In this document: positions 14,533 to 54,144 of the stretch, in pieces
Numbering within the stretch: position 1 is the stretch's first letter
How the letters are laid out: each line of letters opens with the position of its first letter
NCBI RefSeq assembly: GCF_005405065.1
Contig: NZ_BJDI01000001.1
Coordinates: forward strand, 186,001-250,000
Length of the DNA stretch: 64,000 bases
Reading direction: 5' to 3'
DNA from: Lactiplantibacillus nangangensis
Lineage (GTDB): Bacteria > Bacillota > Bacilli > Lactobacillales > Lactobacillaceae
Program-made: the position numbers and the translations under genes
Notes under the pieces: generated by a model
Databases searched by the model: none
The model's input: the letters and a program-made list of their open reading frames with translations, nothing else
Told to the model about the DNA's origin: nothing

Positions 14533-14819
14533 GACTTGTAAATCAGGTCCCTCCTGGTAAGCGTGATAGCTTTCGTACCATGCAACTGTTGGCTTTACTT
14601 TCATTATCTTCGAGTAATATTAGATTTCAGCTTATTTGGCAACTTCGTCCAAATAAGGCTAGCCTTGTCGCCACTTCTTATTCATCAGTTCAGTACTTTG
14701 TTTTAGGCTTACTTCAGATTCCGTCTTGCGGCAGATACCCTTGCCTTCAACTCGTGGATCTGACTACTGCGGCCCACAGCGGACTCACACCGCCTAGTTA
14801 TCACCCATGCCGGGTGTAC
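14533..14819 (-). mobile_element. Group IIC intron fragment (domain I only)
   Basis: Read on the minus strand, the segment starts GTACACCCGGCATGGGTG right after a terminator T-run. It continues through the conserved domain I landmarks GTGAGTCCGC, GAAGGCAAGGGTATC, GGAATCTGAAGTAAGC and finally CTTACCAGGAGGGACCTG. This series closely follows, as I recall it, the Oceanobacillus group IIC intron. Class C introns characteristically insert just downstream of rho-independent terminators, exactly as here. The reverse transcriptase and domains II-VI are absent, and the 5' splice signal GTGYG is changed to GTACA, so it is a dead fragment. Its inner end abuts the toxin remnant. Confidence 0.82.
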
Positions 14820-33790: not shown

Positions 33791-34378
33791 TTAATAACTG
33801 ATTGAATTGACATTATGCCGTTTAGTGGCATTGGTATCCCAAAATGGGACTTTGACGACCCCTAAGACTTTGCCGGCGGGCACAAAGCCCCAATAGCGAC
33901 TGTCGTTTGAGACCGAACGATGATCTCCCAAAACAAAGTAACTATTCTTAGGAACTTTAGTCGTTTTGATCGTCCAACTATATTTATCCGTCAGTCCGCT
34001 CAAATCCCAATTACCAGTCCCCTGTGTCCGCTCAAACTGGCTGATGAACTTCTCGCTTAAGGCTTTGCCGTTGACGTATAGCTTACCATCACGGGAACTA
34101 ACTGTATCACCGGGCATCCCAATGACCCGTTTCACATATTTCACACGCTTTGACCGCGCATCAGGATCCACATTATGCGCATTAAATACAATTACGCTTA
34201 AATGCCTGACCTTGGCCGTCTTCACGACTGCGACACGCTCGTTATTCTCCAAATTTGGTTCCATCGATGGGCCATCAACCCGGACCATCGTGAAAACAAA
34301 GTGGCGAATCAACATGGCAATCAGCAGCCCCACAACGATCGGTAGGACCCAACTCATGATGTTCTTGAAAGTTTTCAT
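33791..34378 (-). CDS. lepB: Signal peptidase I
   Basis: A 195-residue membrane-anchored serine-lysine peptidase that removes signal peptides outside the membrane. One N-terminal helix (residues ~10-32) precedes the catalytic Ser in VDGPSMEPNL (about residue 38) and the catalytic Lys in VKRVIGMPGD. The conserved box GDHRSVSNDSRYWGFV is present. ATG 34378 has GGGAGAAA about eight bases upstream. Its terminator follows directly. Confidence 0.95.
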   Translation of the reverse strand: MKTFKNIMSWVLPIVVGLLIAMLIRHFVFTMVRVDGPSMEPNLENNERVAVVKTAKVRHLSVIVFNAHNVDPDARSKRVKYVKRVIGMPGDTVSSRDGKLYVNGKALSEKFISQFERTQGTGNWDLSGLTDKYSWTIKTTKVPKNSYFVLGDHRSVSNDSRYWGFVPAGKVLGVVKVPFWDTNATKRHNVNSISY

Positions 34379-34504
34379 CAACCCGTTTCTCCCTTATCCC
34401 CACTCTAACTTCCAATAATTATAGCCCAATTACCGGTCTTTGTCCGTTAATGGCTGATGGTTTTTACAAATTCGTAATCTCACAGTCCAATCTTTTTGAT
34501 AGTG

Positions 34505-34677
34505 GTTCTATTGCCGCCTACCGGGTGAGGGGATTTAGGGCTGGAACGTGGTGGACACGTTTTGAAGCCTGAGGAGCGGTCTTCAAAGCCGGTCTTTTTC
34601 TAAGTCGTCGGCAGCCCACCGCCAACTAAGCAAAATTTCACCACTGAGCCCTAAATCCCCTCACCCTCACGGCTAAC
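34505..34677. repeat. Structured hairpin element A1
   Basis: A 20-bp stem closes the element (34523-34542 with 34647-34666; core GTGAGGGGATTTAGGGCT). Inside is a hairpin TTTGA-AGCC-TGAGGAGC-GGTC-TTCAAA. An inverted partner copy (A2) lies 306 bases away. Flanking bases 34505-34527 match the reverse complement of 35131-35153 exactly. No protein frame explains the conservation. Confidence 0.85.
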
Positions 34678-34982
34678 CAACGTTTCTTCTAATTTTAAGT
34701 CGTCTTCACTTATTTGGCAGAGACGCACTAACCTAGCCGATTGGTTGGGTCAAAGGATGATCTACTATGGCATTTTACTTGGTGTAACGCTATTTTGGCA
34801 AACCCAGTAAAAAAACAAGCTTATAGACTGGTAGCTTTGACAAGGCTAGTCGTATCCGTGGTATTTCAACATTTTCCAGAAACTTCTCACAGCTAAATTA
34901 CAATCACACAGCGTGTCAAAAAATGAACAATCCCCCTAACTTTATACTCGCATCGTAGTCGTTGGTTTTGGTTTAAGCTAAC
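34678..34982. other. Spacer between hairpin elements A1 and A2
   Basis: About 300 bases without a credible gene, RNA or promoter; I see nothing further in it. Confidence 0.4.
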
Positions 34983-35153
34983 TTAGCCGTGAGGGTGTCG
35001 TCATTTAGGGCTCAGTGGTGAAATTTGACTTAGTTGGCGGTGATTTTCCGGCAGCTTAGTCAAAGACCGGCTTCGGAGACCGCCCTTTGGCTCCGAACTG
35101 TGTCCACCACGTTCCAGCCCTAAATGACGACACCCGGTAGGCGGCAATAGAAC
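34983..35153. repeat. Structured hairpin element A2, inverted copy of A1
   Basis: A perfect 20-bp stem (GGGTGTCGTCATTTAGGGCT at 34993-35012 with 35116-35135) closes this copy. Relative to A1, five adjacent stem positions differ on both arms in a way that keeps pairing. The inner hairpin, read on the minus strand, is TTCGG-AGCC-AAAGGGC-GGTC-TCCGAA, again with a compensated stem. Confidence 0.85.
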
Positions 35154-35156
35154 GCC

Positions 35157-35189
35157 AAAAAACGCCAGCCATCACATGGATGACTGGCG
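35157..35189 (-). terminator. Terminator of mnmE-mnmG
   Basis: CGCCAG pairs with CTGGCG, extended by CATC with GATG across one mismatch, and T6 follows on the minus strand. Confidence 0.85.
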
Positions 35190-35203
35190 CTAAAATTGAT
35201 TAA

Positions 35204-37117
35204 CTAATCTTGAACCTTGGCGATTCGACCTTGCTGAATATAAACACTCAAAATCGCGATATCGGCAGGATTGACCCCACTGATCCGTGACGCTTGGGCG
35301 ATCGTCGCTGGTTGAATCTTCTTGAGTTTTTGATGGGCTTCAGTTGCAAGACCATCAATGGCATCATAGTCAATCCGATCAGGAATCTTCTTAGCTTCCA
35401 TCTTCTTCAAATGCGCAACCCGATCTTCGGCTTTCTTAATGTAGCCAGCGTATTTGATTTGGATTTCAACTTGTTCCACAATGTGGCGTTCCAATGGTTC
35501 GGCTGGTGCTGGAATGAATTTCATCAAGTCATCATACCGCACTTCTGGCCGCTTCAAGAAGTCTGAAGCCAAAACAGCATCCTTGAGTTCCCCAGAATTG
35601 TGGTCATGTAAGAACTGATTGACGTCATCGTTTGGCTTAATTCTAATCTTGCCTAAACGGTCAAGTTCATCAGAAATCGCTTGCCGTTTTGCTTCAAAGG
35701 CGGTGTAACGATCATCATCGATCAAACCAAGTTCATGCCCTTTATCCGTTAACCGTAAGTCAGCATTATCATGACGTAAAATCAACCGATATTCGGCCCG
35801 ACTCGTTAGCAAACGGTAAGGTTCGTTGGTTCCCTTAGTGACCAAGTCATCAATCATGACACCGATATAAGCGTCACTTCGCTTCAAGGTAAATTGACCT
35901 CGATCTAAGGCCCGTAACCCCGCGTTGATACCAGCCATCAAACCTTGACCAGCTGCTTCTTCGTAGCCGGAAGTCCCATTGGTTTGACCAGCCGTGTAAA
36001 GATTCTTAACCAACTTGGTTTCCAAAGTCGCTTTCAATTGATATGGCGCAACCACGTCATATTCAATGGCGTAACCGGGCCGCATCATTTCAGCGTCTTC
36101 CAAACCTTTGATCGAGTGCAAGATCCGTTGTTGCACTTCTTCAGGCATTGACGTCGATAAACCTTGGACATACCATTCATCCGTATTCCGGCCTTCTGGT
36201 TCCAAGAAGAGTTGATGCCGTTTCTTATCAGCGAAACGCACGATCTTATCTTCAATTGAAGGACAGTAGCGTGGCCCGACCCCTTCGATCACGCCAGTAA
36301 ACATTGGCGCCCGGTCAAGGTTTTCACGAATGATCTTATGAGTCGTTTCATTAGTATAGGTTAACCAGCAAGATAACTGATGCGTCAGATCCAGATAATC
36401 TTCATCCTTAGTTTCAAAACTAAAGTGATGGGGTTCTGGGTCACCGGGTTGTTCTTCCGTCACACCGTAATCGATCGTATTGCCATCAACCCGTGGTGGC
36501 GTCCCAGTCTTGAAGCGTTCGAGATCAAAGCCCAATTTTTCCAAATCGCCAGACAACTTCATGGCTGGTTGCGAGTTGTTAGGGCCGGAAGAATACATCA
36601 ATTCACCGATGATAATCTTCCCACGCGCAGCGGTCCCAGTGGTCAAAACGACACTCTTAGCACTGTAACGCGCCCCGGTATTCGTGATGACCCCTTTACA
36701 GACGCCATCTTCCACGATCAAGCCGTCCACGATGCCTTGGCGTAACGTCAAATTAGGTTCGCGTTCAATCGTATGCTTCATTTCTGAATGATAGGCATGC
36801 TTATCAGCTTGGGCCCGTAACGCACGCACTGCGGGACCTTTACCCGTATTCAACATCCGCATCTGGACGTAAGTCTTATCGATGTTGCGGCCCATTTCGC
36901 CACCTAAGGCATCAATTTCACGCACCACGATCCCTTTGGCTGGCCCCCCAACTGAGGGGTTACAAGGCATAAAAGCGACCATATCCAAATTAATGGTCAT
37001 GAGTAATGTCCGATTGCCCATCCGTGCGGCTGCTAAAGCGGCTTCGGAACCGGCATGGCCCGCGCCGACAACAATAACGTCATAGTCGCGGCCAGTATAT
37101 TCCTTTACTTCTGTCAT
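35204..37117 (-). CDS. mnmG: tRNA uridine 5-carboxymethylaminomethyl modification enzyme MnmG
   Basis: A 637-residue FAD enzyme that works with MnmE to modify the wobble uridine of certain tRNAs. The N-terminal dinucleotide-binding stretch is [20 protein letters not shown], followed by [12 protein letters not shown], the conserved GTPPRVDG, and [19 protein letters not shown]. The C-terminal helical domain contacts MnmE. It follows mnmE by 24 bases on the minus strand, and a terminator is 14 bases past the stop. The pair is a standard neighbour of the origin in Firmicutes. Confidence 0.98.
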
Positions 37118-48657: not shown

Positions 48658-48683
48658 ATTTAGCGGATTGTGGTTGCTTCATC

Positions 48684-48823
48684 GCCAACGAGGCGCCGTG
48701 ACGGGCTGGAACGCGGTGAACGCGACTTTGAGCCGAAAACCGCGTCTCAAAGCTCGGTTTTCCCTAAGCCGCCAAGAGCGCGACTAAGGGAATCCCACGG
48801 CTGAGCCCCGGCGCCTAGTTGGC
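48684..48823. repeat. Structured hairpin element A3
   Basis: GCCAAC and AGGCGCCG pair with CGGCGCCT and GTTGGC, and GGGCT pairs with AGCCC inside (48684-48707 with 48804-48823, apart from a 4-base bulge and one mismatch). The inner hairpin is CTTTG-AGCC-GAAAACCGC-GTC-TCAAAG. It shares GGGCTGGAACG and the AGCCC closing with A1 and A2, but the outer stem is different. It lies 26 bases after gyrB. Confidence 0.82.
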
Positions 48824-48872
48824 TAATATCCAGCTCAATAAATTTGATTGTCTGGCTATCGTCGTAGCTGGA

Positions 48873-49028
48873 GCCAATCAGTTGAACTACCGTGTCGAGC
48901 AAGTTAGCTGGGGAATTTTCCCCGCTTAGTGGCTGGCCGACTTTTAAGCCGTGATCTTACGGCTTGAAAGCGCCCTGCAGACCGCACTTTGGCTGCAGGT
49001 CTGCCGCACAGTAGTTCAACTGATTGGC
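48873..49028. repeat. Structured hairpin element A4, inverted relative to A3
   Basis: GCCAATCAGTTGAACTAC (48873-48890) pairs perfectly with 49011-49028. Read on the minus strand, its inner hairpin CTGC-AGCC-AAAGTGC-GGTC-TGCAG has the same loop as A2 (AGCC-AAAGGGC-GGTC) but a different, compensated stem. A second hairpin, GGGGAA with TTCCCC, and an ACTAAGC stretch match the distal part of A1. It ends about 80 bases before gyrA. Confidence 0.8.
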
Positions 49029-49108
49029 GGAAGCGAAGCAAGCACAAAGCAAGTAATCAAGAAACTTAAAAACGAATTGGCAAACATAGATGAAGGAGGA
49101 TACAAGAC

Positions 49109-53217: not shown

Positions 53218-53250
53218 TTTGGTCTAAAAGTTTGAAAGATAGTTGATCAT

Positions 53251-53435
53251 TGCCGCTTCCGGTTGTTGTTGATCATATGCGGCCGAGGGACCGGGCCAAG
53301 CCTCAGGAACGTCTTGCCCCTCGCCTGGAAGCCTTGCTTAAAACCGCAAGTCTCCCAGACGGTCCGTGGTGTAAGACCGGAAGAGCATCGGTCAAACGCC
53401 ACCCACACGGCCGATGCCATCAACAACCACCTACA
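53251..53435. repeat. Structured hairpin element B1
   Basis: A long stem is formed by GTTGTTGAT and CGGCCG (53261-53285) with CGGCCG and ATCAACAAC (53408-53431). Inside is the hairpin CTGGA-AGCC-TTGC...GCAA-GTC-TCCCAG, which uses the same AGCC/GTC arrangement as the A elements. An inverted, diverged copy (B2) lies about 400 bases on. Open frames across it run on both strands and reflect the high GC content only. Confidence 0.8.
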
Positions 53436-53846
53436 GCTAGTCAACTTCTCTGAATGATTGGACAATTGTTTAAACTTAGCGGAGTCAGTTAAAATTGGTG
53501 TACTGTGTCGGCAGTGCTAGCAAGAGCGGATTTTGCGTGATCGAGTGATAGTTCGCATGGGACCATTTTAGGCGTAGCTAACGCAAGTATTACTGGATTC
53601 ACGGTTGTTTTGATACCTTCAACCTCCGGAAAAAATATATTTTACGGCCTGTTTTAGCACATTATCGGCAAAGAAATATGTCATGGCGGGTCACTCAAAA
53701 CATGGGTTAACATGGCTAAGAACGTTAACCATATTTTTGAAAGTGTGTATCAATTCTGGCTAAAAGGTTGCTAGGACACAGCTTTGAGGGGTGTTAAACT
53801 TCAAAGAGCAGTGCTTTGATTTAGAAGAGGGTTGGATATAGCCGGA
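53436..53846. other. Spacer between hairpin elements B1 and B2
   Basis: About 400 bases without a recognisable gene. The inverted repeat GGTTAAC, 12 bases, GTTAACC (53705-53730) is the only structure I noticed. Confidence 0.4.
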
Positions 53847-54025
53847 GGTTGCTGCTGATAGCATCGGTCGTGAAGGTGGCGTTTGGCCGGGTATTTTCCG
53901 GCCTTACACCACGGACCGGCCGGGACAATTGCGGTTTTTGCAACTGTTCCGGGCGAGGGACAAGACGTTCTTGGCTTGGCCCGGTCCCTCGACCGCATGT
54001 TATCAGCGGCAACCGGAGGCGGAAA
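53847..54025. repeat. Structured hairpin element B2, inverted relative to B1
   Basis: GGTTGCTGCTGATAGCATCG and GTCG (53847-53870) pair with 53990-54014 to close the element. Read on the minus strand, its interior (GAGGGACCGGGCCAAGCC to TCCGTGGTGTAAGGCCGG) follows B1 over about 180 bases, while stem positions change on both arms: CGGTCG with CGACCG here, CGGCCG in B1. Confidence 0.8.
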
Positions 54026-54144
54026 TGACGTGCCAATTTCTAGTGGCATAGCTTGTCTGCCCCTTTTCACAAGCAATCGCTGAAACGGACCCGTGGTTTG
54101 TGATAAAATATAATTATTACTGAGAACACTTGAGGGAATTTCAA

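Follow-up and report, generated by a model that had tools for sequence, protein, structure and literature searches.

A divergent pair of folded repeats between lepB and mnmG in Lactiplantibacillus nangangensis, and related repeats in lactobacilli

The unit between lepB and mnmG and the evidence for its fold

What are the two similar sequences, A1 and A2, that lie in opposite orientation between lepB (signal peptidase I) and mnmG of L. nangangensis, and is their structure selected? A sequence-only reading of the window, the whole stretch of 64,000 nucleotides that was analysed, had placed two inverted copies here, and they were present at that place with 84% identity to each other (Table 1). 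The perfect closing stem it had described was 20 bp long in both copies. It had also counted five adjacent double substitutions between the two stems; the stems (AGGGGA versus TCGTCA) in fact differed at four positions, not all adjacent, the third and sixth bases being equal, but at all four the other arm was altered to match. The outward-reading strand of each copy gave a three-way junction fold. The fold energy of A1 was -89.2 kcal/mol on the minus strand versus -79.8 kcal/mol on the plus strand, and that of A2 was -97.9 kcal/mol on the plus strand versus -86.7 kcal/mol on the minus strand. Together A1 and A2 make up one divergent unit, of which each is a half.

Table 1. Positions of the repeat halves, stems and flanking genes in the window
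Feature	Position	Strand	Remarks
lepB (signal peptidase I)	33791-34381	-	flanks A1/A2
A1, S half (three-way junction)	34505-34676	functional strand -	R1 161.6 bits at 34505-34677; among the 40 sequences used to build R1
A1 closing stem P1, outer arm	34523-34542	-	20/20 complementary to 34647-34666
A1 closing stem P1, inner arm	34647-34666	-	pairs with 34523-34542
Spacer between A1 and A2	34677-34982	none	no ORF of at least 60 aa
A2, S half (three-way junction)	34983-35153	functional strand +	R1 175.2 bits at 34982-35153; among the 40 sequences used to build R1
A2 closing stem P1, inner arm	34993-35012	+	20/20 complementary to 35116-35135
A2 closing stem P1, outer arm	35116-35135	+	pairs with 34993-35012
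mnmG	35204-37117	-	flanks A1/A2
Second unit, S half	48673-48827	-	R1 83.2 bits; between gyrB and gyrA
Second unit, weaker divergent partner	48869-49039	+	R1 29.2 bits; R2 55.2 bits at 48860-49048
Third unit, L half	53241-53444	-	R2 185.1 bits
Third unit, divergent L half	53834-54034	+	R2 212.9 bits (sequence in the model); R1 43.3 bits

The statement that no protein frame or known motif explains the copies also held. No ORF of at least 60 aa was found inside the 648-bp unit, and a search of the unit alone against Rfam, with E-values up to 5, gave two weak matches in the spacer, both far under the gathering score. In the whole window one Rfam family reached its gathering score, at a place off the unit. 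A Group II intron RNA match (RF02001, 106.8 bits) lies at 14561-14735 on the minus strand, next to an araD-like gene. No terminator-like site was seen within the A1/A2 unit.

Covariation was analyzed in several alignments. Alignment A1 held 40 copies from the same genome, aligned by sequence alone, while alignments A2 and A3 were fitted to the structure of the model. In alignment A1, 97.3% of the cells were paired and double changes occurred in 31 of 50 pairs; none of 500 shuffles reached the observed value, and sliding the partners abolished the signal. A cross-genus alignment, which was fitted to the model, showed double changes in 47 of 50 pairs. Shared ancestry or model-fitted alignment could be thought to produce the covariation artificially, as alignments A2 and A3 were fitted and related copies inflate shuffles, but this is hardly credible, because alignment A1 used sequence only and was also examined by a phylogeny-aware test that took in every column pair (our own R-scape-like re-implementation, 60 null alignments). 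The test found 12 significant pairs among the 13,203 column pairs of alignment A1, and all 12 were in the structure; alignment A3 gave 28 significant pairs, of which 26 were in the structure and 2 were adjacent. By this test the covariation is explained neither by chance nor by shared ancestry. The check suggested with the sequence-only reading, a covariance model, a search of Lactobacillaceae and a covariation test, was run, with the re-implementation in place of R-scape itself, and the models, the many copies and the 12 structural pairs agree with its claim that the structure is under selection.

The wobble pairs were not distributed equally between the strands. G·T exceeded A·C in alignment A1 (59 versus 17), alignment A2 (166 versus 67) and alignment A3 (112 versus 35), and 110 copies with anchors found contained 75 G·T versus 38 A·C, including a subclass with a fixed A·C. 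This excess suggests that one strand is read. RNA and cruciform DNA had both been offered as the form in which the structure is selected; selection of the structure itself stood, but a double-stranded cruciform is disfavoured because G·T exceeds A·C.

Family size, pairing and gene context

The number of related copies was determined first in the L. nangangensis genome. When A1 was used as the query of a DNA search, 46 matches were obtained, including two of A1's own stem arms. Covariance model R1, for class S (a three-way junction of about 170 nt), found at least 86 copies when 150 of 828 first-look candidates were scored, and its scores for A1 and A2 (Table 1) are far above what chance would give. 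Model R2, for the larger class L (a four-way junction of about 205 nt), returned at least 110 rows from 150 of 1,000 first-look candidates scored, and 87 were kept once shadows on the reverse strand, weak rows and sites already assigned to S had been removed. Together there were at least 173 halves, which make up 31.8 kb of 2.90 Mb, or at least 1.1% of the genome. The two models recognised each other's members, and the classes are thus related. Many halves that at first appeared single had a larger four-way-junction partner nearby.

Two further units were located in the window (Table 1). The second (48673-49039) lies in the short space that separates gyrB from gyrA, and the third, an L-L pair (53241-54034), is flanked by the ssb region and a PRK14538-like gene (432.9 bits, with the cut-off of 707 not reached).

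Outside this genome, DNA matches were present in 17 of the 21 genomes of the genus Lactiplantibacillus. R1 found members in at least 79 of 301 Lactobacillaceae genomes, representing at least 13 of the 40 genera sampled, and across the order in at least 22 of 395 genomes, all those listed being within Lactobacillaceae; the family and order searches used strict filters, with up to 9 and 7 candidates scored per genome, respectively. The core pattern was also present in records of Companilactobacillus and uncultured Lactobacillus. A search of plasmids and phages with A2 gave no match among the records covered, from which those near the genome of the window were possibly excluded.

Neighbouring halves were mostly divergent. 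Among the 46 couples no more than 800 nt apart in the L. nangangensis genome, 42 were divergent, 4 tandem and none convergent (44 of 48 were divergent in an earlier count), and the 42 divergent couples comprised 19 S-S, 20 L-S and 3 L-L. All 14 couples within 800 nt at loci fetched from other genera were divergent. No partner was detected for 83 of the 173 halves. Several of the 20 lone L halves inspected (59 in total) had a common block on the inner side, up to about 200 nt long, and two lone L halves sit in 468- and 475-bp units with AAAGGTTGAAAG at both boundaries. These two units, at the loci L243 and L252 (C11:39441-39915 and C4:48706-49173 of the same genome), have IS4-type ends and contain one L half together with a different block, and this second block has no clear S or L fold.

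Gene context was counted with genes guessed from open frames. The genes flanking 34 pairs in the L. nangangensis genome were arranged in tandem at 23, divergently at 7 and convergently at 4. Of the S halves in this genome (n = 81), 41 faced a gene start and 33 a gene end, with 7 unclear; the corresponding numbers in L. pingfangensis (n = 31) were 23, 3 and 5. At loci L119 and L121-L145 of L. pingfangensis a common stretch, about 85 nt at its longest, follows the S halves, often with TTGACA inside. A trans-acting neighbour gene was looked for as well, and clusters of 1,044 open frames from the fetched loci, judged by eye, contained ordinary-looking genes only.

Mobility of related units and the fold at orthologous loci

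We examined how such units spread. Three of the 34 pairs in the L. nangangensis genome, all short units, were flanked by direct repeats of 10-12 nt; no recognisable ends or target duplication was found in the other 31, nor at A1/A2. The ends of the three short units, ACGCTTGGTGCTAGTTG, are common to a 950-bp IS of the same genome, whose transposase belongs to the IS982 family (219 bits, cut-off 130). Repeats of 7-10 nt were present at 10 of 16 IS982-type units and at the 950-bp IS itself. A second kind of end, AAAGGTTGAAAG, was carried by units of 466-542 bp in the genomes G001 and G009, 15 of 19 being flanked by repeats of 7-12 nt, and the same ends were found on a 1,561-bp IS in G004. This IS codes for a 451-aa transposase of the IS4 family (481.6 bits, cut-off 250), but no target duplication was seen at it. 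IS982-type and IS4-type units contain folded halves, but neither model, with E-values up to 1, found a folded half inside the 950-bp or the 1,561-bp IS.

The related units are therefore MITEs with IS982- or IS4-family ends, probably moved in trans. The sequence-only reading would have given way to a match with a known transposon end that explained the palindromes. Such ends do account for the spread of the relatives, but not for the hairpins, because both ISs lack them. DDE transposases need only the ends of an element. It is thus unlikely that the fold is kept for transposition alone, since the transposases act on the ends and copies without recognisable ends keep the fold.

IS982 transposases were found in 13 of the 21 genomes of the genus, 8 of them above the cut-off, but none was found in L. 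pingfangensis despite its many near-identical copies. At locus L199 (C13:77000-81500 of the L. nangangensis genome) two IS982-family transposase genes, equal in length and orientation, are close neighbours. In copies not of the IS982 type a weak motif extends about 15 nt beyond GGCAA. Units occupy the gap between mnmG and lepB in 4 of the 21 genomes (L. nangangensis, G001, G017 and G009), and the G009 unit at this place has IS4-type ends. We infer that A1/A2 arrived in a way similar to that of the related units and then lost its ends.

Loci shared with L. daoliensis, L. pingfangensis and G001 were compared half by half in 17 comparisons. The identity of the halves was 0.66-0.93, and at least 0.83 in 13 of 17, the four poor comparisons being 0.66, 0.73, 0.73 and 0.79. 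The inner flanks were at most 0.68 identical in 14 of 17 and 0.75, 0.83 and 0.85 in the others, with random DNA at 0.58, and most spacers were at background identity. At one locus a second half was present in L. daoliensis and missing from the L. nangangensis genome. In 9 of the 17 comparisons 60 pairs had changed, and 46 of them still paired: 33 had changed on both sides and 13 on one, while 14 were broken. Decayed copies are under-represented in these data, because only sites with both species fetched were examined. The fold was often kept in place while the DNA between the halves had changed past recognition, and the 33 pairs changed on both sides lend further weight to the earlier claim of selection.

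Paired stems might also persist in dead MITEs without any function, if palindromes were corrected by template switching. The many perfect stems would suit this, as would a closing stem that is nearly sequence-free (84 distinct 5' arms among the 110 anchored copies), but it is improbable as an account of the halves: unpaired positions were kept at orthologous loci as well (332 of 385, versus 806 of 900 paired positions) while most spacers were at background, and correction of a duplex does not predict G·T intermediates in excess of A·C.

Possible function and comparison with known systems

The explanation that we moderately favour is that the A1/A2 family consists of structured MITEs in which the folded halves remain functional once inserted, with shielding of neighbours at the RNA level as the working guess. 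A unit usually comprises two large folding modules, S or L, set divergently around a spacer. The modules would act single-stranded, most likely as RNA in read-through transcripts that cross the unit. With divergent halves, the last half carried by a transcript from either side would be in the functional sense. This last half may form a stable 3' block that protects the neighbours against read-through or defines RNA ends, and selection would for this reason keep the fold at each inserted site. An RNA role is favoured because, with the halves placed divergently, transcription in either direction meets a functional half.

Each half could instead be an independently transcribed small RNA gene, and the RNA-like multi-branch folds with internal loops conserved across genera would fit such a gene. 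Three promoter-like matches occurred in 34370-35210 versus 0.9 expected; those in the A1/A2 spacer lie on the minus strand at 34801-34772 and 34720-34692, and one match stops 15 nt short of A1's inner end. However, no conserved promoter was seen by eye beside the inner ends of the halves, the spacers are mostly unconserved and the copy number per genome is very high, which together make this origin a doubtful one.

The main rival to the RNA role is recognition of the halves as single-stranded DNA. A folded module near the 3' end of each strand would be bound by a nuclease, a recombinase or a replication protein, as in REP/RAYT systems. The strand-specific wobble suits single-stranded DNA as well as it suits RNA. 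However, a profile search for the Y1 transposase RAYT (PF01797) gave 0 matches in the L. nangangensis genome, with 5 of 14 control genomes positive; the mobilisers of the relatives are DDE transposases, for which the ends suffice; and no recurring neighbour gene offered a candidate. The inverted pairs do resemble REPINs, as far as these are described in the accessible part of PMC3116915, and on balance we regard this rival as unlikely, though less so than an independent small RNA gene.

Searches for a family of the A1/A2 type found no description in the literature covered, and the paired folding repeats of lactobacilli are apparently a large undescribed family. A 2008 survey of stem-loop families names, in the text available to us, L. 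johnsonii as the sole Lactobacillus, with one genic family there (PMC2267715). The present family fills at least 1.1% of one genome and reaches at least 13 of 40 genera, yet it has no Rfam match, and with its many natural variants it already provides a set of mutational data on the fold.

A1/A2 is short and without a protein-coding gene, as a MITE is. The Correia/NEMIS, RUP and ERIC MITEs are about 107-155 bp long, and RUP ends are common to a resident IS, according to the part of PMC2229807 that was accessible. The units described here are likewise short, non-coding, intergenic, folded and multicopy, and related units share RUP's feature of ends common to a resident IS. In contrast to these MITEs, they are 340-650 bp long and are built of two divergent three- or four-way junctions. 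Their covariation is strong, the ends found belong to either of two unrelated IS families, and the fold persists at fixed loci. The Caulobacter CIR repeats of alpha-proteobacteria (about 110 bp, with GANTC sites, in the same portion of PMC2229807) also have two folded arms and a linker and are intergenic and conserved, a likeness that is one of description only. Integron attC sites, which occur in cassette arrays, also fold and are the substrates that an integron integrase recognises.

A further parallel, in arrangement, is with REPIN/RAYT systems, which, in the sections available of PMC3116915 and PMC8049555, are inverted folded pairs that are extragenic, dispersed, marked by compensatory changes and long persistent. 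The present halves too form inverted folded pairs in extragenic space, 42 of 46 couples being divergent. However, REPs are 20-40 bp long (PMC3733652, in its accessible part), whereas the halves here are 165-207 nt, and no Y1 transposase was found in the L. nangangensis genome. If the favoured explanation is true, the retention of a complex fold by mobile repeats at fixed sites would show selfish DNA turning into a working part of the host. REPINs have been described as the one known case in prokaryotes of an intragenomic sequence population that is stably maintained (PMC8049555, in the portion seen). We tentatively propose, with less confidence than for the function itself, that the S and L halves represent a functional, folded nucleic-acid module of a new class, which two or more transposition systems of unrelated kinds carry across a bacterial family and which selection retains at each insertion site. 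Beside REPINs they would form a second long-lived intragenomic population in prokaryotes, one with multi-branch RNA-like folds.
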